Shown one piece after another: positions 26,992 through 46,680 of a stretch of DNA of 64,000 bases. Both the position numbers and the translations under genes were made by a program. The DNA lies in the NCBI GenBank assembly GCA_009787785.1, contig WQSR01000001.1, positions 12-64,011 of the forward strand, written 5' to 3'. How positions within the stretch are numbered: position 1 is the stretch's first letter; each line of letters begins with the position of its first letter. Under the pieces are notes generated by a model. The model was not told where the DNA came from, ran no database searches, and worked only from the letters and a program-made list of their open reading frames with translations. This stretch comes from Defluviitaleaceae bacterium. GTDB taxonomy: Bacteria; Bacillota; Clostridia; Lachnospirales; WQUN01.

Positions 26992-26993
26992 AA

Positions 26994-27911: not shown

Positions 27912-29410
27912 TGATGAATAAGAACAGCCGCTCCAGCCTTGTTTTGGTAAGGCCCAATGGTAAAGCCACTATGTATCAGGGTATAAAGCCCGGCGCGGTA
28001 GCGGTCGACCCCCCTTATTGGATGGCTGTGATGGGGGGGTATCTACGGGACAGAAATATTGATGTTTCTTTAATAGATGCGGATGCCGCCGGTCAAACTC
28101 CCGAGGAAACCGCAGAAGAAATAAAAGCATTGAAGCCAGATTTAATAGGTGTTTTTACCTTGGGTAATAATTTGGGTGCCAGCACTTGGACTATGCCGGG
28201 TGCAGGGATGCTGTGCAGGGCTATAAAGAACACCGCGCCAAATATCCCGGTATTTATTTGGGGTAATCACCCCTCCGCCTTGCCGGAACGCACATTACAA
28301 GAAGAAGCGGTTGACTATGTTATTGTGGGCGAGGGATTTGATGCCGTTGAAGGATTGCATCATTATTGCATGACCGGAAAACCCGGTCGTGAATCCATTA
28401 AAGGCATACGCTACTTGGAAGATGGAATATTGTGCGGGGATGGAGCGGTTTCGTTAATACATGATTTGAACGTGTTGCCTGTTGATGGATGGGATTTATT
28501 CCCAAGCACCCAGCGTCATTATCGGAATCATTTGCATTTTGCCTTCGAGGATTTGAACAAGCGCGACCGATACGGTACGATAGCTTCTTCTTTAGGTTGT
28601 CCGTATGGATGTACCTTTTGTGCAATACACGCTTTTTCCGGCAACACACGAAAAGTTCGGCAAAAAACCGTGGACAGGCTTTTGGATGAAGTGGATTGGT
28701 GGGTAAAAAACCGAAATGTTTATTTCTTGCGCATATTAGACGATTGTTTTACAATAAATAGAGCGTTTGTGATTGAATTTTCAAAAAAATTAAAAACACG
28801 AGGTTATGATTTATCTATTTGGATTTATGCACGTATTGATAATGTGGATGAGGAATTATTGTCTGCAATGCGGGGAACTGGCATCAAATGGATTGGCTAC
28901 GGCATTGAAAGTGTAAGCGACCATGCAAGAGAAGACACTAATAAAAACCAATACAATTACGAAAAGACTAAAAAAATAGTAGCATTAACACAGGATTGCG
29001 GTATGTATGTATGCGGGAATTTGATGTTTGGCCTTCCGGGCGAGACCCTTGAGGATATGAAGTTTGACTTGGCCGCCGCCCGTGAAATGAATGTAGAATA
29101 CCCCAATTTATATTGTACAATGGCATATCCCGGTTCGCAATTATACAATGAAATATTAAGTAAAAACCCGAATTGGTTACCAGATACATGGGCGGGATAT
29201 GCACAATATACCTATGATACCAAACCCTTGCCCAATGAACACCTAACAGCAGAGGAAATACTCCGTTTTCGTGATTATGCTTTTACAGCGTTCTTTAACG
29301 ACAACAAGAGATATTTCGATATGATAAACAATAAATTTGGTCTGCCCGCTGTTGATGCGATTAAAAATATGCTAAAGGGCAAGATAAACCGCAAATTATT
29401 GGGGGATTAG
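27911..29410 (+). CDS. B12-binding-domain radical SAM protein
   Basis: This 499-aa protein has an N-terminal cobalamin-binding-like Rossmann domain (residues 1-170; WMAVMGGYLRDRNIDVSLIDAD, then FIWGNHPSALPE and DYVIVGEGFD). The radical SAM domain has the CPYGCTFC cluster motif (about residue 235) and the downstream LRILDDCF and GIKWIGYGIES strands. A helical tail is typical of class B radical SAM methyltransferases and cyclases. Reaction chemistry cannot be told from sequence: C-methylation, ring contraction or another radical rearrangement of a sugar are options. It contains a 7-G run at 28033-28039. It overlaps the preceding stop by one base. Confidence 0.82.
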   Translation: MMNKNSRSSLVLVRPNGKATMYQGIKPGAVAVDPPYWMAVMGGYLRDRNIDVSLIDADAAGQTPEETAEEIKALKPDLIGVFTLGNNLGASTWTMPGAGMLCRAIKNTAPNIPVFIWGNHPSALPERTLQEEAVDYVIVGEGFDAVEGLHHYCMTGKPGRESIKGIRYLEDGILCGDGAVSLIHDLNVLPVDGWDLFPSTQRHYRNHLHFAFEDLNKRDRYGTIASSLGCPYGCTFCAIHAFSGNTRKVRQKTVDRLLDEVDWWVKNRNVYFLRILDDCFTINRAFVIEFSKKLKTRGYDLSIWIYARIDNVDEELLSAMRGTGIKWIGYGIESVSDHAREDTNKNQYNYEKTKKIVALTQDCGMYVCGNLMFGLPGETLEDMKFDLAAAREMNVEYPNLYCTMAYPGSQLYNEILSKNPNWLPDTWAGYAQYTYDTKPLPNEHLTAEEILRFRDYAFTAFFNDNKRYFDMINNKFGLPAVDAIKNMLKGKINRKLLGD

Positions 29411-29414
29411 GATT

Positions 29415-31055
29415 ATGAAAAATATATTAGTTGTATTAAAATATTTTGATTTAGCAATAATGGAGTCTACGCAATTTATCCCTTTGGGGATTATTTACAT
29501 TGCCACAGTATTAAAAAGAAATAGATATAATGTGATTACTTTAACGATTAAAGAAAATGATGCAAGTCACATGAAATATATTGAAATACTAGATGAAACA
29601 ATAAAAAAGCACAATATTGATGTTGTATGTTCAGGAGCATTATCTCCCGACCATTGGTTTATAAAAAATATGTTTAAGACTGTAAAATCTATCAATAAAA
29701 ACATTGTAACCATTTTGGGTGGAGGCGGGATAAGTTCCAATCCAAAGATTGTGTATGAGGATACATTAACAGATTACGGTATCATTAACGAAGGTGAATT
29801 TTCAATTATTCAATTAATGAAACACATAAGTGGGGGGGGGGGCGACACAGAGATAATAAATATTCCCGGACTTGTATATAAAAATCATAAAGGTGAAACA
29901 ATTATCAACCCCTCTTCTAATATTGAAAATTTGGATGCGATTCCTTTTCCCGATTTTACATTATTTCCAGAATTTGAAAAAGCAATTCTTAAAACAGGGG
30001 AGTATCCCATTTTATTAAGCCGCAGTTGCCCTTTTAAGTGTACATTCTGCTTTCATACATGCGGTTCAACATATCGGAAGAGAAGCCTTGATAATATTTT
30101 TCAAGAAATCAGTTTTGCTGTTAATAGATATAAAATACGTAAAATTTATTTAAATGATGAACTTTTTATAGATAATAAGGAGCGCATAAAAGATTTTTGT
30201 GAGAGAATAAAAAAGTTTAATTTAAGCTTTAATGGTCAAACACGTGCGGATGTTATTACTAAAGAGACATTGGTTATGCTTAAAGAAGCCGGATGTAAAA
30301 GTATTGGCATTGGTTTGGAGTCAATGAATAATGATGTGTTAAAAAGCATGAAAAAAAGAGTAACAAGACAACAAATTGATGATGCATATAAAATGACCAA
30401 AGAAATCGGATTATCGGTTGGCGGAAATATTATTGTGGGTGATATTGCTGAATCATTGGAAACGGCAGATGAATCAATTAAATGGTTTGTACAAAATTAT
30501 ACGCAGTATAACTTAGACATAATTAATATACGTGTTCTACCTGGCACAGAATTATATAATTATGCAGTAAAAAAGGGTATTATTAAATGTGAAACCGAAT
30601 ATATAAACAGCGGAAATTATGAAATTAATATAACTAACATGTCTGATGAGGAATTTGCTTATATTAATAAAAAAATTGCACAGCTAGGATATTGCATTCA
30701 CCGGGGGGTCGAGTTTTTAGAAGTTATTAATATAAATAGAGAAAGTCATACTGTGGATTTGAATATAGAATGTCTCTCCTGTCGGAAAGCATTTATTGTT
30801 AATGATAATCCCGTGGATAAAGTGTTATATGTTTGTCCATATTGTCATTCTAATATTTTATTATATATGAAAAAAATATTAAAAGAGCATGACTTGGAAT
30901 TAAGCAAGGATATTGAAGCAGTTGAAGCAATTGATTCGAATATTAGGAAGAAAAGAAATTACAAAGAAAGAATTAAAAACATAATTAAAAAATATTTACC
31001 ATTTCGAATTTATATAATTATGAGAGCATTGAAAAACAGAATATATAATAAATAA
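29415..31055 (+). CDS. B12-binding-domain radical SAM protein with C-terminal zinc-finger-like tail
   Basis: This 546-aa protein has a cobalamin-binding-like domain at residues 1-150 and radical SAM motif SCPFKCTFCFHTCG near residue 205, followed by KIYLNDELF and CKSIGIGLESM. The last ~130 residues are unusual: IECLSCRKAF and VCPYCHSNILLY make a probable four-cysteine zinc knuckle before a basic tail. An 11-G run (29832-29842) encodes Gly-Gly-Gly-Gly within the first domain and is in frame here. It follows the preceding radical SAM gene by four bases. It shares only the general family architecture with that gene, so it is probably not a recent duplicate. Confidence 0.82.
   Translation: MKNILVVLKYFDLAIMESTQFIPLGIIYIATVLKRNRYNVITLTIKENDASHMKYIEILDETIKKHNIDVVCSGALSPDHWFIKNMFKTVKSINKNIVTILGGGGISSNPKIVYEDTLTDYGIINEGEFSIIQLMKHISGGGGDTEIINIPGLVYKNHKGETIINPSSNIENLDAIPFPDFTLFPEFEKAILKTGEYPILLSRSCPFKCTFCFHTCGSTYRKRSLDNIFQEISFAVNRYKIRKIYLNDELFIDNKERIKDFCERIKKFNLSFNGQTRADVITKETLVMLKEAGCKSIGIGLESMNNDVLKSMKKRVTRQQIDDAYKMTKEIGLSVGGNIIVGDIAESLETADESIKWFVQNYTQYNLDIINIRVLPGTELYNYAVKKGIIKCETEYINSGNYEINITNMSDEEFAYINKKIAQLGYCIHRGVEFLEVININRESHTVDLNIECLSCRKAFIVNDNPVDKVLYVCPYCHSNILLYMKKILKEHDLELSKDIEAVEAIDSNIRKKRNYKERIKNIIKKYLPFRIYIIMRALKNRIYNK
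29832..29842 (+). repeat. Homopolymer run of 11 G inside a radical SAM gene
   Basis: Eleven consecutive G bases occur in otherwise AT-rich coding DNA. In the current state the reading frame is maintained (Ser followed by four Gly then Asp). A gain or loss of one base would truncate the product shortly downstream, making this a contingency-type tract. Confidence 0.85.
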
Positions 31056-31067
31056 AGGGTGAAAGAA

Positions 31068-31913
31068 ATGGATTTGCGGGAAAAAATAAATTCACATGAT
31101 GCTGGTGAAGCTGTAGCCGTTTTAAATTACCAACCTTTCATCATATCCGATGATATTCAGACAGGTTGTGCTTATTCGTTTTGTTCCGGTGATGACCCAA
31201 GAGTTGCCCCCCCCCTGGTATTCCATAAAAACGATTGGACTGATGAAAAATGGGATTTTATTTCCAAATGCAACGGACAATTGAGAGCAATGTATGATGA
31301 TATATTGGATGAAATCGCTTCCCGGTTTCCCGGGGCATCCCTTTTAGATATAGGGTGTAATAATGGTTATTTTCCAGTTGGCGCAGAAATACGCGGAATG
31401 AGGGGAACGGGAACAGATGGAAACGGTGCGCATGAAAAATCGATGCATTTCTTGAATAAAGCACTTGATACTCAAGCGGAATTTATTCTTGGGTTATACG
31501 ATAGCATTACGCACAAGTTGCCCGATGTAGGTATACATGATGTTGTTACGCTGTCTGCAATCATGTGTCATTTGCCTGACCCGTTATACTTTCTTTCAGA
31601 GGTCGGCAAAATTGCACAGCGTGCAATTTTATATTATGGACAGATAATTGATACCGATAAATTTCTAATATCATATAATCCACCTCACCCCAATTTATCC
31701 CATATTGTTGAATTTCCGCATAATTTTAATGATAACACCCGATTATCCTTAGGATTGTTTAAAGAAGCTTGCTCACAAATGGGATTTAATAATTTTTATA
31801 AGATACCGCCGCGTGATTCATGGTTGGAAATGTGCCATGGCCCTATTTCGCTAACGCTTGAACAAGAATTAAAAGATGTTTCTTGTCATGTCGCAATTCT
31901 TGCAATGCGATAA
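31068..31913 (+). CDS. Class I SAM-dependent methyltransferase
   Basis: This 281-aa protein has the SAM-binding motif I SLLDIGCNNGYFPVGAE (about residues 90-106), an acidic residue after the second strand (TGTDGNG) and LSAIMCHLPDPLYFL as motif post-I/II. AAAGGG eight bases before the ATG at 31068 supports that start over the GTG at 31059. A 9-C run (31207-31215) lies in the N-terminal part, in frame (Ala-Pro-Pro-Leu). It probably methylates a sugar hydroxyl in the glycan pathway; the target is not identifiable. It lies between the radical SAM and heptose kinase genes. Confidence 0.82.
   Translation: MDLREKINSHDAGEAVAVLNYQPFIISDDIQTGCAYSFCSGDDPRVAPPLVFHKNDWTDEKWDFISKCNGQLRAMYDDILDEIASRFPGASLLDIGCNNGYFPVGAEIRGMRGTGTDGNGAHEKSMHFLNKALDTQAEFILGLYDSITHKLPDVGIHDVVTLSAIMCHLPDPLYFLSEVGKIAQRAILYYGQIIDTDKFLISYNPPHPNLSHIVEFPHNFNDNTRLSLGLFKEACSQMGFNNFYKIPPRDSWLEMCHGPISLTLEQELKDVSCHVAILAMR
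31207..31215 (+). repeat. Homopolymer run of 9 C inside a methyltransferase gene
   Basis: Nine consecutive C bases encode part of Ala-Pro-Pro-Leu and are in frame in this copy. The surrounding gene is AT-rich, so the run stands out. Confidence 0.8.
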
Positions 31914-31950
31914 TATACGAATAAGAAATTATGATGGGAAGGAACAATTC

Positions 31951-32946
31951 ATGATTATAACAAAAACACCATACCGCATGTCTTTTTTCGGCGGTGGCAC
32001 TGATTATCCCACTTGGTTTATGAAAAACGAAGGCCGTGTACTTTCTGCAACCATAAATAAATATTGCTATATTACTTGCCGTAGTTTGCCGCCCTTTTTT
32101 GACCATGATATCCGTGTCGCGTGGTCCAGGGTTGAAAATTTAACTAACATTGACGATATACAGCATCCTGCTGTACGCGAGGGTTTGCGTTTTATGGGTA
32201 TAAAACGGGGTATTTCCATTACTCATGAGGGTGACCTTCCCGCAAGGACGGGCTTGGGTTCATCATCGTCGTTCATGGTGGGGTTGCTTCATGCGTTATA
32301 TGCTTATCAAGGCCGAATGGCAGATAAAATGACTTTAGCTACAGAAGCTATTCATGTAGAGCGCGAGATGATTAAAGATAATGTGGGTTGCCAAGACCAA
32401 ATCGCCGCGTCTGTTGGAGGATTAAACAAGATTTCCTTTTCATCCCAAGGTTATACGGTATCTCCGCTAGTGTTAAGCAGTGAAACCTTGGAAACCCTAG
32501 AGAAACATTTGATGATGTTCTATACTGGAATTGCCAGAACTGCGTCAGAAGTGGTAGCCGAGCAATTAAAAACAATGAACGATAAACAAAAGGAGATGCA
32601 CCAAGTACTGGCCTTAGTGGATAAAGCGGAAAGTCTGTTGCTTTCCGGTGATATTCCTTCTTTTGGCCGGTTATTAGATGAAACTTGGAAGCTTAAACGT
32701 TCACTGTCTATGAAAATTTCTAATTCATATATAGATGATGCCTATGCATTGGGGATAAAAGCTGGTGCGTATGGCGGGAAATTGCTTGGGGCTGGCGGCG
32801 GTGGGTTTTTGCTTTTTTTATGCCCGCCGGAAAAACAAGCCAGTATGAAGAAAGCATTAAAGGATTTTTTACATGTACCTGTTAGGTTTGAATTTAACGG
32901 TACGCAAATTATTCATTATGTCCCGGATAATTATGAAACATTTTAA
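31951..32946 (+). CDS. hddA: GHMP-family D-glycero-D-manno-heptose 7-phosphate kinase (HddA-like)
   Basis: This is a 331-aa kinase. The N-terminal TPYRMSFFGGGTDYP signature is the hallmark of HddA-type GHMP kinases. The ATP loop PARTGLGSSSSFMVGLLHAL is near residue 100, and the C-terminal GAYGGKLLGAGGGGFLLF is GHMP motif 3. It converts heptose 7-phosphate to the 1,7-bisphosphate in the GDP-heptose pathway. GGGAAGGAAC before the ATG at 31951 sets the start; an upstream frame to 31876 overlaps the methyltransferase and is unlikely. Companion enzymes HddC-GmhB (36047) and GmhA (37315) are in the same locus. Confidence 0.9.
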   Translation: MIITKTPYRMSFFGGGTDYPTWFMKNEGRVLSATINKYCYITCRSLPPFFDHDIRVAWSRVENLTNIDDIQHPAVREGLRFMGIKRGISITHEGDLPARTGLGSSSSFMVGLLHALYAYQGRMADKMTLATEAIHVEREMIKDNVGCQDQIAASVGGLNKISFSSQGYTVSPLVLSSETLETLEKHLMMFYTGIARTASEVVAEQLKTMNDKQKEMHQVLALVDKAESLLLSGDIPSFGRLLDETWKLKRSLSMKISNSYIDDAYALGIKAGAYGGKLLGAGGGGFLLFLCPPEKQASMKKALKDFLHVPVRFEFNGTQIIHYVPDNYETF

Positions 32947-32964
32947 ACATGGGGGAATTCTAGA

Positions 32965-33891
32965 ATGAATAAAGATAGCGTTATATTTGTAGCCCAAAAC
33001 GATGACCTGATAGGTGCAGCCATAGCTATGGAGTTAAAAAACAAAGAGTTTATAAACATACTGACATATAATAAAGATGAACTTGATTTAACAGATGCTT
33101 CTGCAGTATTCAGTTTTTTTGAAAAAAATAAACCGGAATATGTTTTTTGTTTTGCGGGGCCCCATGGAGGAATAACCATGAACACCCAATACCCCGCCGA
33201 TTTGATTTACACCAACCTTCAGGTGCAATGCAATTTAATACACAGTGCATATAAGCATGGCGTAAAAAAGTTTTTATTTATGGCCAGCAGTTGCGTATAC
33301 CCCAAGGAGTGTCCGCAACCCATTGCTGAAGACTATTATATGACAGGTAAAATGGAGCCTACAAGCATTGCTTATTCTACCGCACGTGTTGCTGGAATAG
33401 AAATGTGCTTAGCTTATAATAGGCAACACAAAACAAAATTTATCCCTTCAATAATGACAAATTACTTTGGGCCGGGTGATGATTTTTCCGACGATGGGCA
33501 TGTACTGGCCAGTGTGCTTCGAAAAATGAGCCAAGCAAAGGAACGCGGCGATGCTTCCCTAACATTATGGGGTTCTGGAAAACCAAAGCGGCAGTTTATG
33601 TTTACTCATGACATAGCTAAAGCGGCAATATTAATTATGCAGAAATATAATGAAAACGAACTTATTAATATTGCTGGGGGGAAGGAGTTTTCTATTGCAG
33701 AGTTGGCCAATGAATTAAAAGAAATAACCGGATATCAAGGGGAGATTTTATTTGACACCAGCAAGCCGGACGGAGCGATGCGTAAGTTATTGGATAATAA
33801 TAAGTTGAAATTATTAGGCTTTGCTGAAACGGTGGATTTTCATGAGGGCTTGTCAATTTTGCATAAGGACTTTATACTTTCACAAAAATAA
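32965..33891 (+). CDS. GDP-fucose-synthase-like SDR with altered active site
   Basis: This 308-aa extended SDR of the Fcl/WcaG/Cj1428 group is recognisable by FLFMASSCVYPKE, the EPTSIAYSTARVAGIEMC helix, TNYFGPGDDF and RQFMFTHDIA. Three positions depart from the family. The Gly-rich cofactor loop is VAQNDDLIG instead of a GxxGxxG pattern. The YxxxK catalytic pair is Y137-x-x-x-R141. The His that with Cys109 forms the epimerase pair in E. coli GDP-fucose synthase is replaced (GPGDDF, not GPHDNF), while the Cys (SSC) remains. This suggests a C4 reductase without epimerase activity, or a much altered enzyme. It is flanked by hddA and the ColD-like gene. Confidence 0.75.
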   Translation: MNKDSVIFVAQNDDLIGAAIAMELKNKEFINILTYNKDELDLTDASAVFSFFEKNKPEYVFCFAGPHGGITMNTQYPADLIYTNLQVQCNLIHSAYKHGVKKFLFMASSCVYPKECPQPIAEDYYMTGKMEPTSIAYSTARVAGIEMCLAYNRQHKTKFIPSIMTNYFGPGDDFSDDGHVLASVLRKMSQAKERGDASLTLWGSGKPKRQFMFTHDIAKAAILIMQKYNENELINIAGGKEFSIAELANELKEITGYQGEILFDTSKPDGAMRKLLDNNKLKLLGFAETVDFHEGLSILHKDFILSQK

Positions 33892-33908
33892 GGAAGGGAT
33901 TGATTTAT

Positions 33909-35072
33909 ATGTACTACCCCTTGATGGATAATAATATTATCCGTGAAGATTTGGATGCATTGATTGAGTTTCTCAAAGGCGACCACATGCTTACCCAGTC
34001 AAAAAATGTCCGTAAATTTGAAGAACAGTGGTCAAATTGGCTGGGCGTAAAGCACAGTGTATTTGTCAATTCGGGTGCTTCGGCAAACCTTGCCACCATC
34101 GGAATGTTAAAGCAGAGATTCCCGGAGGGGGGGGAGATTATTGTACCGCCCTTAACTTGGGTATCCGATGTGGCTTCTGTATTGTGGAACCAATTTACCC
34201 CCGTGTTCGCCGACATTGACATGAATCATTTGGGCATGGACACGGATAAAATACTGGAAAAAATTACGGATAAAACACGTGCTGTTTTTATCACCTATGT
34301 ATTGGGCTTTAACTGCCTTACCGAGAAGCTGGTAAATGAATTGGACAAGCGCGGAATCATTTTGATAGAGGATGTATGTGAATCCCATGGTGCTACATGG
34401 AATGGAAAAAAATTGGGTTCCATCGGATGGGCATCCAATTTTTCGTTTTATTATGCGCACCATATGAGCACAATAGAAGGCGGTATGATTTGTACCAATG
34501 ACGATGAAGTATATAATATGGCCAGACTCTTCCGCTCCCACGGAATGACACGTGAATCTCTATCCCAGGATTTCAAAGACGGATATATTCATAAATACCC
34601 TGACTTGAATCCTGAATTTATATTTGCATATCCGGCATTGAATATACGCTCGACAGAACTTAACGCGGTGCTGGGGCTTGCACAATTACCCCGGTTAGAT
34701 AATAATGTAAAAAAACGCAATGAGAATTTCAGTTATTTTTTGAACAATTTGAATCCAAACAGATATAAAACAGACTTTGACCTTGTAGGCATGTCAAATT
34801 ACGCCTTTACATTAATTTTAAAACATCCAGACGCAGATTTATGGAAAAAAGTACGTGCCGCACTTACTGCCGCCGGAGTAGAATATCGTTGCGGGACAGC
34901 CGGAGGCGGTAATCAACTGCGGCAACCTTATCTTAAAGGGTTGTTGGATGTAAACTATGATGATTACCCCCATGTTGACCATGTGCATTTTTATGGGATG
35001 TACTTGGGCAATTATCCTGATTTAGCTAAAGAGAAAATTGAAAAAGTATGTAAAATTCTAAATGAATTATAG
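33909..35072 (+). CDS. ColD-like PMP-dependent C3 dehydratase (DegT family, His in place of Lys)
   Basis: This 387-aa DegT/DnrJ/EryC1-family protein has the PLP-binding blocks (FVNSGASANLATIG, VPPLTWVSDV, ILIEDVCESHGATW). The Schiff-base lysine position in NFSFYYAHHMSTIEGG is His (about residue 184). In ColD and the E1-type 3-dehydrases the same replacement converts an aminotransferase into a PMP-dependent 3-dehydratase of NDP-4-ketosugars. Its length matches ColD (388 aa), and no 2Fe-2S cysteine cluster is seen, again as in ColD. AAGGAAGGG precedes the ATG at 33909. An 8-G run lies at 34127-34134. Neighbours suggest a GDP-4-keto-heptose substrate (inference). Confidence 0.85.
   Translation: MYYPLMDNNIIREDLDALIEFLKGDHMLTQSKNVRKFEEQWSNWLGVKHSVFVNSGASANLATIGMLKQRFPEGGEIIVPPLTWVSDVASVLWNQFTPVFADIDMNHLGMDTDKILEKITDKTRAVFITYVLGFNCLTEKLVNELDKRGIILIEDVCESHGATWNGKKLGSIGWASNFSFYYAHHMSTIEGGMICTNDDEVYNMARLFRSHGMTRESLSQDFKDGYIHKYPDLNPEFIFAYPALNIRSTELNAVLGLAQLPRLDNNVKKRNENFSYFLNNLNPNRYKTDFDLVGMSNYAFTLILKHPDADLWKKVRAALTAAGVEYRCGTAGGGNQLRQPYLKGLLDVNYDDYPHVDHVHFYGMYLGNYPDLAKEKIEKVCKILNEL
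34127..34134 (+). repeat. Homopolymer run of 8 G inside the ColD-like gene
   Basis: Eight consecutive G bases encode Glu-Gly-Gly-Glu in a conserved region before VPPLTW. The run is in frame in this copy. Confidence 0.75.
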
Positions 35073-35086
35073 AAAGGGGTAGGAAA

Positions 35087-36025
35087 ATGAAAGAAAAAGT
35101 TTTGTTAATTGGAGGCGCGGGGTATATTGGAACGTCATTGGCACCCCTGTTGCTCAATGAGGGTTACAAGGTAACGGTGCTGGATATGTTCTTGTTTAAT
35201 CAAACCCCCATGCTGGATTTGTGCCTCAACCCGGATTTTGAGGTAATACGGGGTGACTTCCGCGAAGAAGAAATATTATCAAAAGCCCTTACAGGGATGG
35301 ATTACATTGTACCCCTTGCCGCGATAGTGGGCTATCCCCATTGTGACGCCGACAGAACCGCCGCCAAAACAACGAATGTTGGGGCTATACAAACGTTACT
35401 CTCCCTTAGAAAGCCCGAGCAAAAAATTATTTATCCTTGCACCAACAGCGGGTATGGCATAGGTGAACAGAATGATTTTTGCACAGAAGATTCGCCGCTC
35501 AGGCCCATATCGCTTTATGGTAAAACGAAAGTAGAAGCTGAACGGTTGGTATTGGAAGCCGGCAATTCTTTATCCTTCCGCTATGCAACGGTTTTTGGCG
35601 CATCACCCCGGATAAGACTTGACCTGCTGGTTAATAATTTTATCTTCCGTGCTGTGATGGATAAAACCGTTACTATTTTTGAAGGGCATTTCAGACGCAA
35701 CTATATTCATGTGAAGGATGCGGCTGGTGCTGTATTACACGCAATGAAAAATTTTGATGCCATGAAGGGATTGCCTTATAATTGCGGCTTATCTACCGCC
35801 AACCTTACCAAAATCCAGCTTTGTGAAAAAATCAAGCAACATATCCCTGATTTTGTTTATATCGAAGCCCCCGTAGGCGAGGACCCCGATAAACGTGATT
35901 ATAATGTTTCCAACGCACGCTTGGAAGCTACCGGTTGGGTGCCACAGGTTAGCTTGGATGACGGTATAAAAGAATTAATAAAAGCGTTTAAAATAATTCA
36001 ATTTTATGAAGCATCTATGCGGTAA
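35087..36025 (+). CDS. Extended SDR resembling GDP-heptose C4-dehydrogenase (Cj1427 type)
   Basis: This 312-aa Rossmann-fold protein has an intact NAD loop GGAGYIGTSLAP and a YGKTK catalytic pair. Several blocks match what I remember of Campylobacter Cj1427, which oxidises C4 of GDP-D-glycero-D-manno-heptose: TNSGYGIGE, ESPLRPIS-like EDSPLRPIS, FRRNYIHVKD, GLSTANLTK and GEDPDKRDYNVSN. The TNSGYG segment stands where 4,6-dehydratases have TDEVYG, so it is not a canonical dehydratase. The assignment rests on recall without an alignment. It lies between the ColD-like and HddC-GmhB genes, which fits a role on GDP-heptose. Confidence 0.78.
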   Translation: MKEKVLLIGGAGYIGTSLAPLLLNEGYKVTVLDMFLFNQTPMLDLCLNPDFEVIRGDFREEEILSKALTGMDYIVPLAAIVGYPHCDADRTAAKTTNVGAIQTLLSLRKPEQKIIYPCTNSGYGIGEQNDFCTEDSPLRPISLYGKTKVEAERLVLEAGNSLSFRYATVFGASPRIRLDLLVNNFIFRAVMDKTVTIFEGHFRRNYIHVKDAAGAVLHAMKNFDAMKGLPYNCGLSTANLTKIQLCEKIKQHIPDFVYIEAPVGEDPDKRDYNVSNARLEATGWVPQVSLDDGIKELIKAFKIIQFYEASMR

Positions 36026-36046
36026 TTACGGGAAGGGGCGGTTTCA

Positions 36047-37315
36047 TTGCACGCCATAAAAGCGGTAATCATGGCCGGAGGCTTGGGTACGCGACTGGCA
36101 TCATTAACACCAGACATCCCCAAGCCGATGATACCTGTCGGCGGGAAACCTGTGCTTTTACACCAAATTGAATGCTTAAAAAAAAATAATATAACGGATA
36201 TAACCTTCATAACCGGATACAGTGCGGATAAAATAGAAGCGTATTTTGGCGACGGCGGCACCTGGGGGGTTAATATTTCCTATATAGTTGAGGAAATTCC
36301 CTTGGGCACCGCCGGAGGATTATATTATTTAAAGGAATGTCTCCATGATACTTTTTTGCTTATTAATGGAGATATTCTATTTGACGTAGATTTTTTTCGC
36401 ATGTTCCGCTGGCACAAGAAAAAAGGAGCCGTTGCGACACTACTCACCCACCCCAATAACCACCCCTATGACAGTGCGCTGGTTATTACCGATGAACAGA
36501 GCCGGGTTACAAATTGGTTGCACAAGGAAGAGCCTCGGGAAGATTATAATAACAGGGTTAATGCAGGTATACACATGTTGGAACCGGAAGTGCTCGAAAA
36601 AATGAAAGCACCTGTTAAAACAGATTTAGACAGGGACATGCTCAAACCAATGGTAATAACAAAAGGCGTGTTTGCATATGACACACCGGAATATGTAAAG
36701 GATTTGGGTACACCGGATAGGTATGAGCGGGTGTGCCGGGATTTTGAAAATGGATTAGTAGAAGCAAAGAATCTTAGACACAAACAAAAAGCGGTTTTTT
36801 TAGACAGAGACGGAACTATTAATAAATATAGTGGATTTATTACCCATCCCGACCAAATCGAATTATTACCGGGCGTTTCTGAAGCCATTCGAAAATTAAA
36901 CAACTCTGCATATCTAACCATTGTGGTTACAAATCAACCTATAATAGCCCGTGGTGATTGCGACCATGATGAATTAAATGCTATACACAGACGCTTAGAA
37001 CGATTACTGGGAGAAGCGGGTGCGTACTTGGATGCGATTTTTTATTGTCCGCACCACCCGGACAAAGGATTTACCGGGGAACGCGCTGAATATAAAATCG
37101 AATGCCCCTGCCGCAAGCCCCAACCGGGAATGCTTCTACAAGCACATGAAAAGTTTAATATTGATTTATCTAAATCTTATATGGTTGGCGACCATGACCG
37201 GGATGTACAAGCGGGGTTGGCTGCCGGGTGCACATCCTTGAAAATAGATGCCCAAACACCCCGGCGAACTTCATTGCTGGAATGCGTTGATGCGATTTTG
37301 GAAGGAGTAGTATAA
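36047..37315 (+). CDS. HddC-GmhB fusion: heptose 1-phosphate guanylyltransferase and bisphosphate phosphatase
   Basis: This is a 422-aa two-domain protein. Residues 1-235 are a nucleotidyltransferase (IMAGGLGTRLASLTPDIPKP; LLINGDILFDVD; NRVNAGIHML) of the HddC type. Residues 245-422 are a HAD phosphatase of the GmhB type (VFLDRDGTINKYSGF; a zinc-loop-like CPHHPD...CPCRKPQPGML; GDHDRDVQAGLAAG). GmhB removes the 7-phosphate after HddA has acted, and HddC then forms GDP-heptose. The fusion puts these consecutive steps in one chain. It starts with TTG, preceded by GGAAGGGG at good spacing. The stop overlaps the gmhA start by one base. Confidence 0.88.
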   Translation: MHAIKAVIMAGGLGTRLASLTPDIPKPMIPVGGKPVLLHQIECLKKNNITDITFITGYSADKIEAYFGDGGTWGVNISYIVEEIPLGTAGGLYYLKECLHDTFLLINGDILFDVDFFRMFRWHKKKGAVATLLTHPNNHPYDSALVITDEQSRVTNWLHKEEPREDYNNRVNAGIHMLEPEVLEKMKAPVKTDLDRDMLKPMVITKGVFAYDTPEYVKDLGTPDRYERVCRDFENGLVEAKNLRHKQKAVFLDRDGTINKYSGFITHPDQIELLPGVSEAIRKLNNSAYLTIVVTNQPIIARGDCDHDELNAIHRRLERLLGEAGAYLDAIFYCPHHPDKGFTGERAEYKIECPCRKPQPGMLLQAHEKFNIDLSKSYMVGDHDRDVQAGLAAGCTSLKIDAQTPRRTSLLECVDAILEGVV

Positions 37316-37956
37316 TGAAAAGCAAGCATGTGCTGGATGAACTGTTTATATCTTATGCATGTCTTGAGGTATGTAGAGATGCTATTTTTCAAGCCTTCGG
37401 TATTCTTCGTGATGTATATGCCCAAAACGGAAAGGTTTTACTTTGCGGTAACGGTGGCAGCGCGGCCGACTGTGAACATATCGTTGGCGAATTAATGAAG
37501 GGCTTTAAATTAAAGCGACCGCTTCCCCATGATTCCCATGATAAGCTATCCTCCTTTGGCGGTGGAGAAATTGCCGATTATTTACAAGGTGCGCTTCCAG
37601 CTATTTCTTTAGTTAGCCACAACGCGCTTATTTCAGCCTTTACAAACGATGTCGGTGCTGATTATGTTTTCGCACAGCAAGTATATGGATATGGGAAAAA
37701 GGGTGACGCGCTTATTGCACTTTCAACCTCCGGGAATGCAACCAACGTAGTTAACGCTTGCCGTGTGGCCAAAGCATTGGAGATGAAGGTAATCGGCCTT
37801 TCGGGAAAAACTGGTGGGTTGTTGAAAAATCTTTGTGACACATGCATTTGTATACCCTCAGCTGACACAGCATCTATTCAAGAAAGGCATTTGCCGGTAT
37901 ATCACGCACTGTGTGCCGCGCTAGAGGTTGAGTTTTGGGGAAGCTTGGTGTGGTAA
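37315..37956 (+). CDS. gmhA: Sedoheptulose 7-phosphate isomerase GmhA
   Basis: This 213-aa SIS-fold isomerase has CGNGGSAADCEHIVGELMKGF (the phosphate-binding loop and conserved acidic side chains), LSTSGNATNVVNAC (second SIS loop) and the C-terminal IQERHLPVYHALC with the conserved Glu and His. The central loop (about residues 62-95) is longer than in the shortest homologues. It converts sedoheptulose 7-phosphate to D-glycero-D-manno-heptose 7-phosphate, the first step of the GDP-heptose route. ATG overlaps the preceding stop (ATGA-type). Confidence 0.92.
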   Translation: MKSKHVLDELFISYACLEVCRDAIFQAFGILRDVYAQNGKVLLCGNGGSAADCEHIVGELMKGFKLKRPLPHDSHDKLSSFGGGEIADYLQGALPAISLVSHNALISAFTNDVGADYVFAQQVYGYGKKGDALIALSTSGNATNVVNACRVAKALEMKVIGLSGKTGGLLKNLCDTCICIPSADTASIQERHLPVYHALCAALEVEFWGSLVW

Positions 37957-37996: not shown

Positions 37997-38043
37997 ATGT
38001 TAAAAGGCAAGGTGCAGAGAGCATTATAAGGAGATTGAGTGAG

Positions 38044-39231
38044 ATGCGTTTAATAACCAAAGCAATAAAATCCCTTCAAAAAAGAGGATTGCGTGAATCA
38101 ATTAAGAGATTTTTGTTTTATATGATGGTTAATAATAAAATGTTCGAAGATTGGATCGTTCAAAAGACTACACAGCAAGTAAATTTGACGCTTAATGATT
38201 GTATTAATCAACAAATCGATTTGATAGTTAATAAACTTACAAGAAATGACTTGTTTGAGACATACATGAGTCATCGAATCGAACCTCAAGCTAATGATCT
38301 TATATATTATGCGAAGCATAGAAGAATATTATTTTCATGGTATTATTATTGGCCAAATAATATGATATTACATGAATTGGAAAATTTGGCATTAAGTCAT
38401 TGGTCATGGAAATATGAATATAAGCAGTTATGGTTAATCTATTGTGCATGTTTATTGGACAAGGGGCGAGATGAGGAAGCCGAACGTGTGCTAAAAAGAT
38501 ACGAAAAATTATATAAAAAACATGAAATTGAACAATTGTTGCCTGTAGCTGACTTTGCAAGTCGCATAGGCATTTCCAATGATTCAATAGAAAAGTCAAG
38601 TTTGATATATAAAATGTTTCAAAAAAACAAAAAAACTAACCATATAGTAAGTTATATGAAAGATAAAAAAATTGCAGTGGTTAGTAATGGGGATGCCTGT
38701 CTCGGTAAAGGCTTAGGCAAAGAGATTGATGCAAATGATATAGTTGTCCGGTTTAATTGTTTTGATAACACAGCGCGGGGAAATGATTATGGCAATAAAA
38801 CATCGATTTGGGTAAAATGTTTATCCGTTCAGGACGAAGATAAAAATATTGAAAATATGGATTATGTTTTATACAGTTGGGACGTGAATCGCTTTTTTTT
38901 TAGTGAAAACCATCTTAATATATTGTATGATTATGCTTGTTCCCATCACGATAAGCTAACATACATCGACGGTGATTTAATTCGTTCATTGCTTGATGAT
39001 TCTCTACTTACTATTTCAACATCAGGATGTAACGTTTTTTACTATTTATATAAATTGTTTGGTAATTTTCACAATATTAACGCTTACGGATTTAGCTTCT
39101 TAACTTTAGACTATGATAATAGGAATCATTATTATGAAAACAAAAAAATCCCTGATGAACTTGCTAAATTTAATGATTTATACACAGAGTATAACTTCTT
39201 GAATAACCTATATTTTAATAATAAGGAATAA
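38044..39231 (+). CDS. GT29-like (sialyltransferase-motif) glycosyltransferase
   Basis: This is a 395-aa protein. The N-terminal half (residues 1-200) is charged and helical with no recognised domain. The C-terminal half carries the sialyl motifs otherwise best known from animal GT29 enzymes. Motif L is IAVVSNGDACLGKGLGKEID followed by NDIVVRFNCF. A motif S-like segment is TISTSGCNVFYYLYKLF...NAYGF, and a motif VS-like H-Y-Y-E is near the end. GT29 members transfer sialic acid or Kdo-type sugars from CMP donors; the donor genes lie downstream in this locus. AAGGAG favours the ATG at 38044 over the TTG at 38035. No transmembrane anchor is visible. Confidence 0.75.
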   Translation: MRLITKAIKSLQKRGLRESIKRFLFYMMVNNKMFEDWIVQKTTQQVNLTLNDCINQQIDLIVNKLTRNDLFETYMSHRIEPQANDLIYYAKHRRILFSWYYYWPNNMILHELENLALSHWSWKYEYKQLWLIYCACLLDKGRDEEAERVLKRYEKLYKKHEIEQLLPVADFASRIGISNDSIEKSSLIYKMFQKNKKTNHIVSYMKDKKIAVVSNGDACLGKGLGKEIDANDIVVRFNCFDNTARGNDYGNKTSIWVKCLSVQDEDKNIENMDYVLYSWDVNRFFFSENHLNILYDYACSHHDKLTYIDGDLIRSLLDDSLLTISTSGCNVFYYLYKLFGNFHNINAYGFSFLTLDYDNRNHYYENKKIPDELAKFNDLYTEYNFLNNLYFNNKE

Positions 39232-39367
39232 AGAAAATCCATGAAAATATGGTGCAATATCTATAAATAAAAAGAATTATTGTAAAGTAAATATATACAA
39301 ATTAGGGAGCCTTGCTTTTAAACCAACAAATGCTTCCTTAATTATATAAAAAAAGGATGAAGATAAA

Positions 39368-40180
39368 ATGAGAAATATTCTTGTATGCGGTAATGGCCCA
39401 TCGTGTACGAAAATTGATTTTACCCGAGTACCAGATGACGTAAAAATTATGAGAGCGACTTCTTTTTATTTCGAGGATAAATATTATGCGGGTAAGCGTG
39501 TGGATTATTACGTAGATTACATGAAGCGGATTGTGAACCAGTATTTTGTTGTTCGTACCGTTCACGATAAAGGCGAGTACGATATTGATTTAGCAAATAC
39601 ATGGTGGACGGTAATGCATGAAAAAAACCCACATTTCCCCGCTGCCAAATCATGTACGGATTATATACAGCAAAATATATACATTGCTGAGTTTAGATGC
39701 TTTTACGAATATTACTACGGACAATATTTACCTACGGGAATGCAAGCACTTGCATTGGCTTTTTGCTTGGGGTATGAAAATATTTATGTTGCCGGGTTTG
39801 ATATGTTTACAGACCCCAACAATATGCATCCTTTCCCTTACGGGGGAAAGGTAATGCAGGCCGCGCTTGAAAGCGTTCCTTCTACGGGCATTTATGATAC
39901 GAGCGAAGTGAAAAGCGAAAATAAGTCCGAATTTGAATATGTGCAAGTGCTTCGTCCAACCGATATGCAGGTAAAGTTTGTACAATTATTGCAAAAATGT
40001 TTTCCCAAAACAAAAATCATGAGTGTGGTTGAAAATAGTATTATGAATCAACATGTGACCGTTGCACCCATTATACATGATGTGCCTTGGTATGTGCCAC
40101 AAAAAAAGCCGACAGACAGAACAACCGATTGGTATCCCCTACCGGAAAGTATGCCTAGCAGAAGGAGAAACACACAATGA
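39368..40180 (+). CDS. GT42-like sialyltransferase (Cst-II type)
   Basis: This 270-aa protein begins ILVCGNGPSCTKIDFTRVPDD, then MRATSFYFEDKYYAGKRVD. This matches the conserved N-terminal CMP-binding pattern of Campylobacter Cst-II (AGNGPSLKEIDYSRLP... FYFEDKYYLGKK). TGMQALALAFCLGYENIYVAGFDMF corresponds to the second half of the CMP-binding fold. GT42 enzymes transfer sialic or related nonulosonic acids from CMP donors. The 136-base gap before it holds only AT-rich sequence with a weak hairpin (39304-39338). Its stop overlaps the next start by four bases. Confidence 0.85.
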   Translation: MRNILVCGNGPSCTKIDFTRVPDDVKIMRATSFYFEDKYYAGKRVDYYVDYMKRIVNQYFVVRTVHDKGEYDIDLANTWWTVMHEKNPHFPAAKSCTDYIQQNIYIAEFRCFYEYYYGQYLPTGMQALALAFCLGYENIYVAGFDMFTDPNNMHPFPYGGKVMQAALESVPSTGIYDTSEVKSENKSEFEYVQVLRPTDMQVKFVQLLQKCFPKTKIMSVVENSIMNQHVTVAPIIHDVPWYVPQKKPTDRTTDWYPLPESMPSRRRNTQ

Positions 40181-41220
40181 CGGTAAAATACGGCAAGCCT
40201 ATGGCGGGTGTTATGCCTTTTAAGGAATTGTTTTTTAATGAAAACGAAAAAATGCTAAAGTGGGGAGCGGCGGCCTTAGCACTGTATAAACAACAACCCA
40301 AAAGAACCGGTTGCAAGCTGTGTAGCACCCCCCTTCCGAAAGAATTTTATGTTAAAAGCCACGGGTTTGCATTTTATTTATGCGGTGAATGTGGGCATTT
40401 AAACGGTGAATTTGAAGAAACCGATGCCTATAACAGGAATTTTTTTGTGCTACCGGAAAGTAAAATAAGTGACATGTATCATGTGGAGTCGCAAATAAAA
40501 TTTGATGAAAGAACCGATAAGATTTATGTGCCCAAGGTGCAATTTATTATAGATTCATTGGCGGAAACAGGTGTTAACGTAGCAGCATTACAATATTTGG
40601 ATGTGGGTGCAGGTTCGGGTTATATGGTTGCGGCTATGCGAAAAAAAAGATTGGCTGCAAGCGGTGTAGAGGTAAGTGCGCCGCAGGTGGCACTGGCTAA
40701 CACAATGATACCCGCGCCGCAGGCGGTACGTGTTTGCGACCCTTCGGACATTGTACAAATCGCGTTAACAGAAGAAGCCGATGTACTTACTTTTATAGGG
40801 GTGCTTGAGCATATCCCTAATTTGCAGGCGGTATTACAAGCAATAACACAAAATAAAAGTGTTAAATATATGTTTTTTTCTGTGCCCTGTTTGGCATTTT
40901 CCAACGCTATTGAAGCAGTTTTTCCGCAGGTATTTGGCAGGCATATGGGGCACGGGCACACCCACGCGTTCAGCAATCGCTCATTGGAATGGATGTATAA
41001 AAACTATGGCTTTGAGCCTATTGCCGAATGGCGGTTTGGCGGAGATATTATGGATTTATACAGGTCAATAATGGTGTCGCTTAAAGAAAATACTGACGAA
41101 AATTTCATGCGAATGATAGCGGACTTTTTTCAAGAAAATGGTGATGCCCTACAGCTTATTATTGATAAAGCGGGTTTATCATCAGAAATACATGTATTAG
41201 TAAAAAATGCAGGAGCATAA
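40177..41220 (+). CDS. SAM-dependent methyltransferase with N-terminal zinc finger
   Basis: This is a 347-aa protein. A four-cysteine zinc knuckle CKLCSTPL...YLCGECGHLNG lies near residues 45-75. It is followed by a class I methyltransferase domain with YLDVGAGSGYMVAAM (motif I), ASGVEVSAPQ and LTFIGVLEHIPNLQAVL. A C-terminal HTHAFSNRSLEWMYKNYGF segment resembles motifs in sugar C- and O-methyltransferases. C-methyltransferases of deoxysugars also begin with such a zinc finger, so sugar methylation is likely, on a nonulosonic acid or deoxyheptose. It overlaps the GT42-like gene by four bases. Confidence 0.83.
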   Translation: MTVKYGKPMAGVMPFKELFFNENEKMLKWGAAALALYKQQPKRTGCKLCSTPLPKEFYVKSHGFAFYLCGECGHLNGEFEETDAYNRNFFVLPESKISDMYHVESQIKFDERTDKIYVPKVQFIIDSLAETGVNVAALQYLDVGAGSGYMVAAMRKKRLAASGVEVSAPQVALANTMIPAPQAVRVCDPSDIVQIALTEEADVLTFIGVLEHIPNLQAVLQAITQNKSVKYMFFSVPCLAFSNAIEAVFPQVFGRHMGHGHTHAFSNRSLEWMYKNYGFEPIAEWRFGGDIMDLYRSIMVSLKENTDENFMRMIADFFQENGDALQLIIDKAGLSSEIHVLVKNAGA

Positions 41221-41221
41221 A

Positions 41222-42853
41222 ATGAATATATTAGCCGTTATCCCTGCAAGGGGCAATTCAAAAGGTATACCCCGCAAAAATATGCGTTTGATGCACGGTA
41301 AGCCTTTATTGTTTTATTCCATTGCCACAGCAAAGAAGTGTAAATATATTACACAGGTGGCGGTTTCATCAGAGGATGCGGAAATATTGGAATATGCGCA
41401 GTCGATGGGTGTAACGGCACTGCCCAGAAGTATTGAGTTGTCGGGCGACGACATAACCCTAGACCCGGTTGTGTATGACGGGTTAGTTAAAATGGAAGCA
41501 CATATGCATTGTGCATATGATTATATAATTACTATGCAACCCACCTCACCTTTATTGTCTGCTTTAACATTGGAAAGTGCGATTGAATGCGCGGTTAGTA
41601 ATGCGTACGAAACGCTGATAAGCGCGACCAATAAGCCCTCTCTTTCGTGGCGAAGAGAGGGCGATTCTATTTTACCCAATTACCAAAAACGCCTGAACCG
41701 GCAACGGCTACCCGCGAACTATATAGAAACGGGGGCCTTTGTTGTTAGCAAGCGGCATGTGGTAACCAACGCTACACGCATTGGGAAGTATATAAATGTA
41801 TACGAGTTGCCCGGCCATGAGATAATTGATATAGATACTATGGAGGACTGGTTTGCTTGCGAGGCTTTGATGAACCGCAAGCGTATTGTATTCCGTGCCG
41901 ATGGGTCAAGAGAATTGGGTATGGGGCATATATACCGGTGCTTAACCTTGGCATATGAGCTTACGGGGCATGACATTTACTTTGTGTGTGACGAACGGTA
42001 CTTGCCGGGGATAGAAAAAATTGAAGGCAGCTACTTTTATTGTTATAAAATCAATAGTAGCCCCTTGTTTTACAGCCTGTTGGATGAGATAAAGCCGGAC
42101 ATAGTGGTAGTGGACATGCTTAACACCCATGAAGCCGACATGAAGGAGATTAAAACCCGTACGGGTCGGCTGGTTACGCTGGAGGATTTGGGGACGGGAA
42201 CCCATGTAGCCGACGCGGTTGTAAATGAATTGTATACAAATAAAGATAGTCGGCCCCATGTATATACCGGGCATAAATATGCTTGCTTGCGAGAAGAATT
42301 TTTAAGAAGAATGCCTAAGCCGTTTTCCCCGCAGGTTAAAAATATTTTTATTATGTTTGGTGGCAGTGACCCTTCAAACCTAACAAAAAAAGTATATGAA
42401 ATGGTATGCAATTACAATGCGCAGCTTGCGGGTATTTGTTTTAACTTTATCACGGGATTGGCGTATGATTATGAGGTAAACTGCATTGTTGATAACCCCG
42501 AAAAAAATATTTATGTGCATAACAACACACATAAGGTAAGCTGGTTTATGCAACAGGCGGATTTGGCAATATCATCTAAGGGTAGGGGAACGATGGAGCT
42601 AGCCTCCATGGCTGTGCCCGCTATTGTGCTGGCAGCAAATAATAAAGAAAAATCCCACGGGTTTGCTAAGCTGGAAAATGGGTTTGTTAACTTGGGTTCG
42701 GGTGCTGACATCTCTGAGCAAACCTTGTTTAATACATTAAAATGGTTAATTGATACCCCGCAAACGAGAAAAGAAATGCGTGAGTTGATGCTGGGCTTGG
42801 ATTTAACAAATGGGATAAACCGAGTGAAAAAAATTATCTTAGGTGATAAATAA
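41222..42853 (+). CDS. CMP-nonulosonate synthetase fused to PseG-like UDP-sugar hydrolase
   Basis: This is a 543-aa bifunctional protein. Residues 1-225 are a NeuA/PseF-type cytidylyltransferase (VIPARGNSKGIPRKN; TMQPTSPLLSALT; IIDIDTMEDW). Residues 230-543 are a PseG-like GT-B-fold hydrolase (GMGHIYRCLTLAY with the catalytic His; FIMFGGSDPSNLT; SSKGRGTMELASMAVPAI). PseG removes UDP to give the hexose used by the synthase encoded next. The fusion thus joins the hydrolase and activation steps on either side of the condensation. AGGAG before 41222 defines the start. PseB, PseC and PseH partners are not in this window. Confidence 0.88.
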   Translation: MNILAVIPARGNSKGIPRKNMRLMHGKPLLFYSIATAKKCKYITQVAVSSEDAEILEYAQSMGVTALPRSIELSGDDITLDPVVYDGLVKMEAHMHCAYDYIITMQPTSPLLSALTLESAIECAVSNAYETLISATNKPSLSWRREGDSILPNYQKRLNRQRLPANYIETGAFVVSKRHVVTNATRIGKYINVYELPGHEIIDIDTMEDWFACEALMNRKRIVFRADGSRELGMGHIYRCLTLAYELTGHDIYFVCDERYLPGIEKIEGSYFYCYKINSSPLFYSLLDEIKPDIVVVDMLNTHEADMKEIKTRTGRLVTLEDLGTGTHVADAVVNELYTNKDSRPHVYTGHKYACLREEFLRRMPKPFSPQVKNIFIMFGGSDPSNLTKKVYEMVCNYNAQLAGICFNFITGLAYDYEVNCIVDNPEKNIYVHNNTHKVSWFMQQADLAISSKGRGTMELASMAVPAIVLAANNKEKSHGFAKLENGFVNLGSGADISEQTLFNTLKWLIDTPQTRKEMRELMLGLDLTNGINRVKKIILGDK

Positions 42854-42854
42854 T

Positions 42855-46679: not shown

Positions 46680-46680
46680 A

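Follow-up and report, generated by a model that had tools for sequence, protein, structure and literature searches.

The stretch analysed here, referred to as the window, comprises 64,000 nucleotides of contig WQSR01000001.1 from a Defluviitaleaceae bacterium (assembly GCA_009787785.1). A row of genes on a single strand extends from 26152 to 37956; from TK1, the first gene, through GmhA, neighbours are -1 to 37 bases apart. An open reading frame check located the frames named in a preliminary description of this DNA at their positions; the interval considered there (31951-37956) omits five genes, since the operon starts at 26152, and its first three genes encode a transketolase split over two proteins and a radical S-adenosylmethionine (SAM) protein of the B12-binding kind. 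Judged from genes, motifs, trees and synteny, with each reaction deduced from enzyme families, the operon probably makes a guanosine diphosphate (GDP)-activated 3-deoxy-heptose, branched at C4 and destined for the surface glycan whose genes surround it. The gene set that recurs around relatives of its DegT protein, counted in 80 bacterial loci, is called the cassette below. The features of the operon are as follows (ThDP, thiamine diphosphate; SDR, short-chain dehydrogenase/reductase; PMP, pyridoxamine 5'-phosphate):

26152-26991, + strand: TK1, N-terminal (ThDP-binding) half of a split transketolase-like carboligase (PF00456, 99.7 bits)
26994-27911, + strand: TK2, C-terminal (Pyr + C) half of the split transketolase-like carboligase (PF02779, PF02780)
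27911-29410, + strand: BchE/HpnJ-like radical SAM protein with a B12-binding domain, probably orthologous to that of the cassette (PF02310 + PF04055)
29415-31055, + strand: second B12-binding radical SAM protein, in the operon and not conserved in the cassette (PF02310 + PF04055; homologue in 1/80 loci)
31059-31913, + strand: class I SAM methyltransferase, in the operon and not conserved in the cassette (PF13489, 28.9 bits; 0/80 loci)
31951-32946, + strand: HddA (NF049969, 149.8 bits, cut-off 600)
32965-33891, + strand: Fcl-like SDR (NF047922, 339 bits, cut-off 500)
33909-35072, + strand: ColD-like PMP-dependent 3-dehydratase, DegT fold, His for the catalytic Lys (best PDB match ColD, E 2e-53)
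35087-36025, + strand: Cj1427-type GDP-heptose C4-dehydrogenase (PDB 6vo6, E 7e-108)
36053-37315, + strand: HddC-GmhB fusion, heptose-1-phosphate guanylyltransferase and 1,7-bisphosphate 7-phosphatase (NF049965, 103.6 bits; PRK08942, 170 bits)
37315-37956, + strand: GmhA, sedoheptulose 7-phosphate isomerase (TIGR00441, 145.8 bits, cut-off 209)

The GDP-heptose genes claimed in the preliminary description (GmhA, HddA and HddC-GmhB) are all four present and match the correct NCBIfam models, although every score lies below its curated cut-off (300 bits for HddC and 178 for GmhB; the others as listed). When the window genome (99 contigs, 97% complete) was queried with a cassette radical SAM protein, the protein at 27911 was the only strong match (E 9.6e-68; next 2.2e-6).

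The source of the 4-ketone was examined through the SDR at 35087. Its match to PDB 6vo6, which we take to be Cj1427, stands far above that to the runner-up entry (3e-21), with 165 of 305 aligned residues identical (54%), and the two formed one clade (support 100) that excluded the 4,6-dehydratase-like, GalE and Fcl rows of the comparison. The protein carries the motif TNSGYG where five compared GMD-like dehydratases carry Glu (SEVYG, SEVFG, SELYG, SEEFG), and it retains the SDR Tyr and Lys (YGKTK). This Glu is also absent from 60/60 aligned C4-dehydrogenase rows of the cassette. A 4,6-dehydratase function for the SDR was ruled out by the clade with 6vo6 and the missing Glu; the proposed resemblance to Cj1427 was thereby borne out, as was its separation in a phylogeny from the 4,6-dehydratases compared. 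Across the window genome, PF16363 matched five proteins, namely both window SDRs, a GalE over cut-off, a GalE-like SDR and a protein that we read as CapD-type, of the UDP-N-acetylhexosamine kind, and the TIGR01472 (gmd) profile gave no match over cut-off. A GMD-type dehydratase was not found in the genome with these two profiles, other SDR families not having been searched genome-wide; this agrees with the earlier claim that no separate dehydratase feeds the pathway.

The DegT protein shares 109 of 350 residues with ColD, and a His is aligned with the Lys of aminotransferases, as had been proposed. The His is conserved in 81/81 aligned bacterial cassette DegTs, including that of the window, and in 78/78 viral DegTs when a wider motif pattern is used (a narrower pattern gave 66/78). 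The ColD entries 3b8x and 2r0t carry N and K at this position. In the DegT tree the cassette proteins lie on one side of a branch with a support of 99. With midpoint rooting of this quick tree, ColD falls on the side of the cassette (97), where it is a long branch represented by one partial sequence only. Thus, of the phylogeny suggested in the preliminary description, the separation of the cassette from Lys-type aminotransferases held, and the position of ColD is unsure. Its membership of the DegT aminotransferase family (PF01041) would allow the protein to be an aminotransferase after all, with a 4-amino sugar as the product. However, the residue needed for transamination is His throughout the bacterial and viral cassette proteins, and the tree separates these from the Lys-type rows; an aminotransferase was rejected on the His, and an amino sugar is extremely unlikely.

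The first three steps of the pathway are supported by homologues and by an in vitro precedent: GDP-3-deoxy-heptose has been made with Cj1427 and the C3-dehydratase of Campylobacter jejuni HS:5 (Xiang et al., 2023; PMC10680097; here and below, published work is cited from excerpts of the articles). After formation of GDP-heptose, the Cj1427-type enzyme would oxidise C4 with retention of O6, and the ColD-like enzyme would take off O3 with PMP and glutamate. The in vitro route likewise places a C4-dehydrogenase before a pyridoxal phosphate/PMP-dependent C3-dehydratase on GDP-heptose and keeps O6, whereas it is described as an artificial mix of enzymes from different serotypes, ends in C4 reduction and includes no ThDP or radical SAM enzyme (PMC10680097). 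The GDP-3,6-dideoxy-heptose pathways of C. jejuni HS:5 and HS:11 (Ghosh et al., 2023; PMC10440746) share GDP-heptose, a ColD-type 3-dehydratase, an epimerase and a reductase; however, as described there, the 4-keto group comes from a 4,6-dehydratase, O6 is lost and no branching occurs.

Conservation of the cassette was assessed in a contig scan with the DegT protein, from which the best 80 of 269 relatives were taken, a choice that favours close relatives. Sixty of these loci reach at least 8 kb and are termed long; genes were counted by tblastn, at E 1e-8 for ThDP enzymes and 1e-20 for the others. A ThDP gene was found in 58 of the 60 long loci, HddA in 57, the C4-dehydrogenase in 53, HddC in 52 and the radical SAM protein in 50, followed by the Fcl-like SDR (42), GmhA (25), GmhB (8), the L-2-hydroxyglutarate oxidase LhgO (7) and a GMD-like 4,6-dehydratase (4). 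The ThDP count was unchanged at 58/60 with the stricter E 1e-20. In most loci the ThDP gene lies immediately upstream of the DegT gene; that of the window sits in the same row of genes but 6 kb upstream. A scan of IMG/VR added 78 virus loci (L165-L242), each with a DegT relative and some of them near-duplicates. Among the 63 viral loci of at least 9 kb, HddA was detected in 59, a ThDP gene in 57, the radical SAM protein in 55 and the C4-dehydrogenase in 50, with GMD-like genes in 12, Fcl-like genes in 7, HddC in 2 and GmhA in 0. Where at least 3.2 kb is available upstream of DegT, the ThDP enzyme was present in 64/65 viral loci. At an equal threshold of E 1e-8, ThDP and Fcl-like genes were found in 58 and 43 of the 60 bacterial and in 57 and 8 of the 63 viral long loci, respectively. 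The part of the preliminary description in which C4 is oxidised without a 4,6-dehydratase and a ColD-type C3 dehydration follows is well supported, and the plain, reduced 3-deoxy-heptose given there as the end product is probably incomplete because the ThDP gene is so much steadier a companion than Fcl. Furthermore, the ThDP enzyme would consume the C4 ketone whose reduction was proposed there.

The ThDP slot is filled by several enzyme families. A ThDP gene occurs in 69/80 bacterial loci: 29 have a split transketolase, 30 a short E1-type pair and 10 a full or fused E1. This E1-type pair is very short, with representatives of 201 and 178 residues (L044:4816-5418 and L056:5137-5670), the second of which does not match the C-terminal transketolase domain. 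In 4 virus loci, three of them near-identical, an acetolactate-synthase-like enzyme takes the slot, with 8rph as its best PDB match (E 5e-87); 8rph is JanthE, a YerE-like enzyme that couples alpha-keto acids to ketones (PMC12188165). In a quick DegT tree with 114 rows (69 bacterial, that of the window and, as the remainder, 44 distinct viral ones), at least 25 changes of ThDP class were counted, a figure that tree error can inflate. A 2025 review names three ThDP classes, YerE-like, E1-type and split transketolase enzymes, that branch sugars at ketones or are proposed to do so (PMC12247030). It places YerE-like decarboxylases with lipopolysaccharide sugars and the E1-type (aKADH2) with secondary metabolites, and counts 13 split transketolase sequences, all from Streptomycetes and none characterised in vitro (PMC12247030). 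The interchange of ThDP families beside a constant C4-dehydrogenase and 3-dehydratase points to one shared reaction, which would be acyl transfer to the ketone that these two enzymes provide.

In the fourth step, for which synteny and enzyme class are the evidence, the split transketolase-like enzyme would join a two-carbon acyl unit to the C4 ketone and leave a tertiary alcohol, as YerE does. Acetyl from pyruvate is a more likely donor unit than glycoloyl. For the fifth step we guess at tailoring by the radical SAM protein and by the Fcl-like SDR, the latter epimerising C5 or acting on the ketone of the branch, with the methyltransferase perhaps also involved. At the level of genes, and as in yersiniose-type loci, genes for a nucleotide-activated 3-deoxy-4-keto sugar adjoin a ThDP enzyme of a ketone-branching class. 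Deoxygenation at C3 in yersiniose-type pathways uses an iron-sulfur dehydratase, and a ColD-type enzyme takes its place here. Both systems combine 3-deoxygenation beside a 4-ketone with subsequent ThDP addition, and a YerE/JanthE-like enzyme is itself found in the 4 virus loci; they differ in that YerE acts on cytidine diphosphate (CDP)-3,6-dideoxy-4-keto-glucose (PMC12247030), whereas here the substrate would be a GDP-heptose rather than a CDP-hexose, the ketone would come from a C4-dehydrogenase, and the window has a transketolase. The logic of the proposed pathway is that of yersiniose. A C4-branched sugar of R. palustris is also mentioned in the review literature. The split transketolases of miharamycin and amipurimycin are similarly proposed to add two carbons to a keto-sugar, but they belong to Streptomyces antibiotics, are described as uncharacterised in vitro and have no GDP-heptose or surface-glycan setting in that account (PMC12247030). 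Searches of an open-access library turned up no account of a ThDP carboligase in a GDP-heptose pathway and, judged by title, no paper on such a module in phages.

The transketolase pair of the window was compared with those of other cassettes and with the split transketolases of relatives. TK1 groups with 27/28 cassette transketolases (Shimodaira-Hasegawa approximate likelihood ratio test, SH-aLRT, 95), as does TK2 (SH-aLRT 99), with L096 outside, and in both subunit trees the two proteins do not group with the relatives' split transketolases. Residues were compared with the genome's own full-length transketolase (L102) and are given in TktA numbering. The positions that we take to be the ThDP catalytic residues, E411, H66, H261 and H473, are kept in the window and in 28/28 cassette transketolases in each column. 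At H26, H100, R358, S385, H461, D469 and R520, presumably the donor and sugar-phosphate residues, the window has R, L, R, P, S, A and N, so that six of the seven differ from the housekeeping enzyme. The 28 cassette transketolases show H26 to R in 25, H100 to I in 26, S385 to P in 26, H461 to G in 28, D469 to S in 27 and R520 to A in 26, and keep R358. H100 presumably contacts the C1 hydroxyl of the donor, and its loss would fit a donor such as pyruvate. The window also holds a second split transketolase pair, at 46654-48422, adjoining genes that look like an SDR and an FkbH-like gene. This pair was considered as that of the cassette and rejected: it groups with the relatives' ordinary split transketolases, and its placement with the 27 cassette rows was rejected in the TK1 tree (p 0.005).

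The Fcl-like SDR had been assigned the reduction of C4 in the preliminary description, a role that is doubtful because its NAD(P) glycine motif (QNDDLIG) and the Lys of YxxxK (YSTAR) are lost. The equivalents of what we take to be the Fcl epimerase Cys and His, C109 and H179, are kept (SSCVYP, GHVL), and we take the protein as an epimerase or a weakened reductase on these motifs. Similar losses, with Arg for the catalytic Lys, are seen in the Fcl-like SDR of L022 (991-1917), an Oscillospiraceae metagenome-assembled genome (MAG) that is the nearest relative found; most other cassette Fcls keep the glycines and YxxxK.

These results bear on several other explanations. The operon might end at an unbranched 3-deoxy-heptose, made by C4 oxidation, C3 dehydration and C4 reduction by the Fcl-like SDR, with the ThDP and radical SAM genes serving another sugar. 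The reactions have been carried out in vitro using enzymes of Campylobacter (PMC10680097), and Fcl-like genes are present in 42 of the 60 long bacterial loci; the ThDP gene nevertheless tracks DegT better than Fcl does in bacteria and still more so in viruses, and the window's Fcl has neither the glycine motif nor the YxxxK Lys, which makes this outcome unlikely. Synteny is silent on which bond the ThDP enzyme forms, and a carbon-carbon bond elsewhere, either by chain extension at an aldehyde (e.g., an oxidised C7) or on another keto-sugar, with the 3-deoxy step running in parallel, would suit the gene order equally. The ketone expected from the conserved core is nevertheless at C4, and YerE acts on a 3,6-dideoxy-4-keto sugar (PMC12247030), so a bond at another site appears improbable. 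It is very unlikely that the transketolase pair merely feeds sedoheptulose 7-phosphate to GmhA. That sugar phosphate is a transketolase product, GmhA lies in the same operon, and several of the changes in the window's transketolase are also seen in ordinary split transketolases. A source of this kind is countered by the full-length transketolase elsewhere in the genome and by the E1 and acetolactate-synthase-like enzymes that also fill the slot, families not known to make sedoheptulose 7-phosphate. H26, moreover, is Arg in the window and in 25/28 cassette transketolases and His in 27/28 of the relatives' enzymes, and GmhA was not detected in any of the 63 long viral loci, which mostly keep the ThDP slot.

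A more elaborate product can be envisaged within the branched pathway. Caryose is a 4,8-cyclo-3,9-dideoxy-nonose (PMC9026286) and can be seen as a 3-deoxy-heptose chain with an acetyl-derived C8-C9 unit on C4 and an extra C7-C8 bond. The core of radical SAM, ThDP, HddA, DegT and C4-dehydrogenase genes would make a carbocyclic nonose of this kind if the ThDP enzyme formed the C4-C8 bond and the BchE-like radical SAM protein the C7-C8 bond, and T4-like phages would use it to rewrite host or virion glycans. This is a long shot, drawn from matching carbon and deoxy positions alone. If true, it would reveal a broadly spread route to carbocyclic sugars and make the origin of caryose testable.

Several observations weigh against a C4-branched 3-deoxy-heptose as the product of the operon. 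The control set comprised 26 loci around non-cassette DegTs, all from Bacillota and two of them below 8 kb, at least three of whose DegTs are Lys-type (L140, L141 and L147). They form sets of 11 and 15, taken from 12 and 17 loci after removal of the window from both and, from the second, of a genome present in the first. Searched with transketolases and E1 enzymes, 1/11 and 1/15 of these loci (2/26) showed a ThDP gene, but once an acetolactate-synthase-like query was added the count rose to 10/26 (9/24 of those of at least 8 kb). The positive controls are L137, L139, L245, L247, L249, L251, L252, L255, L256 and L257; nine carry acetolactate-synthase-like genes whose products are 31-38% identical to the phage enzyme, and transketolases occur in L137 and L245, L137 having both. 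Because of these positives the ThDP pairing is not peculiar to the cassette, although it is far commoner there (58/60). The positive controls may themselves be branched-sugar loci, possibly of another kind; known yersiniose-type pathways would look alike. ThDP genes were not detected in the long bacterial loci L086 and L092 nor in six long viral loci, and that of L083 lies on the opposite strand. The closest relative, L022 (DegT 77% identical), has a GMD-like 4,6-dehydratase and neither a C4-dehydrogenase nor a ThDP gene on its 4.5-kb contig, and GMD-like genes in 6/80 loci suggest that some cassettes act on 4,6-dehydrated substrates. On the side of the transketolases, the window's proteins form long branches (1.91 and 1.67), and an approximately unbiased (AU) test leaves the window either inside the 27 cassette transketolases or merely sister to them (p 0.78). 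The residue changes are only partly specific: the relatives' ordinary split transketolases keep H26 in 27/28, H100 in 24/28 and R520 in 19/24 but S385, H461 and D469 in just 10/24, 8/24 and 9/24. The second pair of the window lacks H100, S385, H461, D469 and R520 and keeps H26, so that H26 to R is the sole listed change that separates the first pair from it, and phage transketolases mostly keep H26 (11/14) and R520 (12/15). Added to this are the heptose genes' scores short of the NCBIfam cut-offs, the lack of an LhgO match over cut-off in a profile search of the window genome, and the virus records, from which HddC is mostly missing, with an NTP_transferase match over cut-off in 1/16.

Among the 80 bacterial loci the ketone-forming gene is a C4-dehydrogenase in 64 and GMD-like in 6 (among them L037 and L050, at the level of a match only), some loci having both, and the ketone source seems to be swapped within the family. 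A Cj1427-type dehydrogenase would be expected to turn over by a ping-pong mechanism with alpha-ketoglutarate. Cj1427 releases 2-hydroxyglutarate (PMC10680097), and LhgO, found in 9/80 bacterial loci (in L048 over the NCBIfam cut-off), would therefore clear the by-product of this enzyme in cassette loci.

The bacterial cassette DegT loci span at least 11 phyla by record origin, although many are MAGs and some names may be wrong; isolates with the cassette include Azonexus hydrophilus ZS02 (L072) and Rhizobium sp. Leaf262 (L080). Among 398 genomes of the window's phylum, DegT was found at E <= 1e-80 in the window genome only; its distribution in this phylum is thus patchy, and the cassette was probably acquired. 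A scan of plasmids with DegT gave no match at E 1e-60. The virus locus L172 has the core flanked on one side by homologues of tail-tube, UvsY and UvsW proteins and on the other by homologues of a late sigma factor and of the SbcD/SbcC-like nuclease, the last three presumably corresponding to T4 gp55, gp47 and gp46, and at least one such T4-type neighbour occurs in 53/78 viral loci. The phages probably draw on host GDP-heptose, given the scarcity of nucleotidyltransferase matches over cut-off in their records. The recurrence of the gene set across phyla and bacterial viruses suggests that the sugar may be widespread.

If the branched pathway is true, a single cassette joins C4 oxidation of GDP-heptose, ColD-type deoxygenation and ThDP-dependent branching, chemistries that have been studied apart, and a GDP-heptose-derived sugar with a quaternary C4 and a C3 methylene is predicted. 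It would also set ketone-adding transketolases and E1-type enzymes, assigned to secondary metabolites in the 2025 review (PMC12247030), in the context of a surface glycan, and supply many candidate enzymes for biocatalysis that form tertiary alcohols.

Other observations concern more distant DegT relatives and the remainder of the window. A cyanophage DegT, 38% identical, lies beside two nucleotide-sugar epimerase genes in a 19-kb stretch with no annotated ThDP enzyme. Synechococcus phage ACG-2014f (L136) carries GMD-like, Fcl-like and ColD-like genes, an arrangement that resembles the GDP-colitose route. Downstream of the operon, at 38041-43925, the window contains a Pfam match to GT29 (sialyltransferase) followed by genes that, by inspection of their sequences, look like NeuA fused to a PseG-like domain and NeuB; these may provide a sialic- or legionaminic-acid-like sugar in the same glycan.

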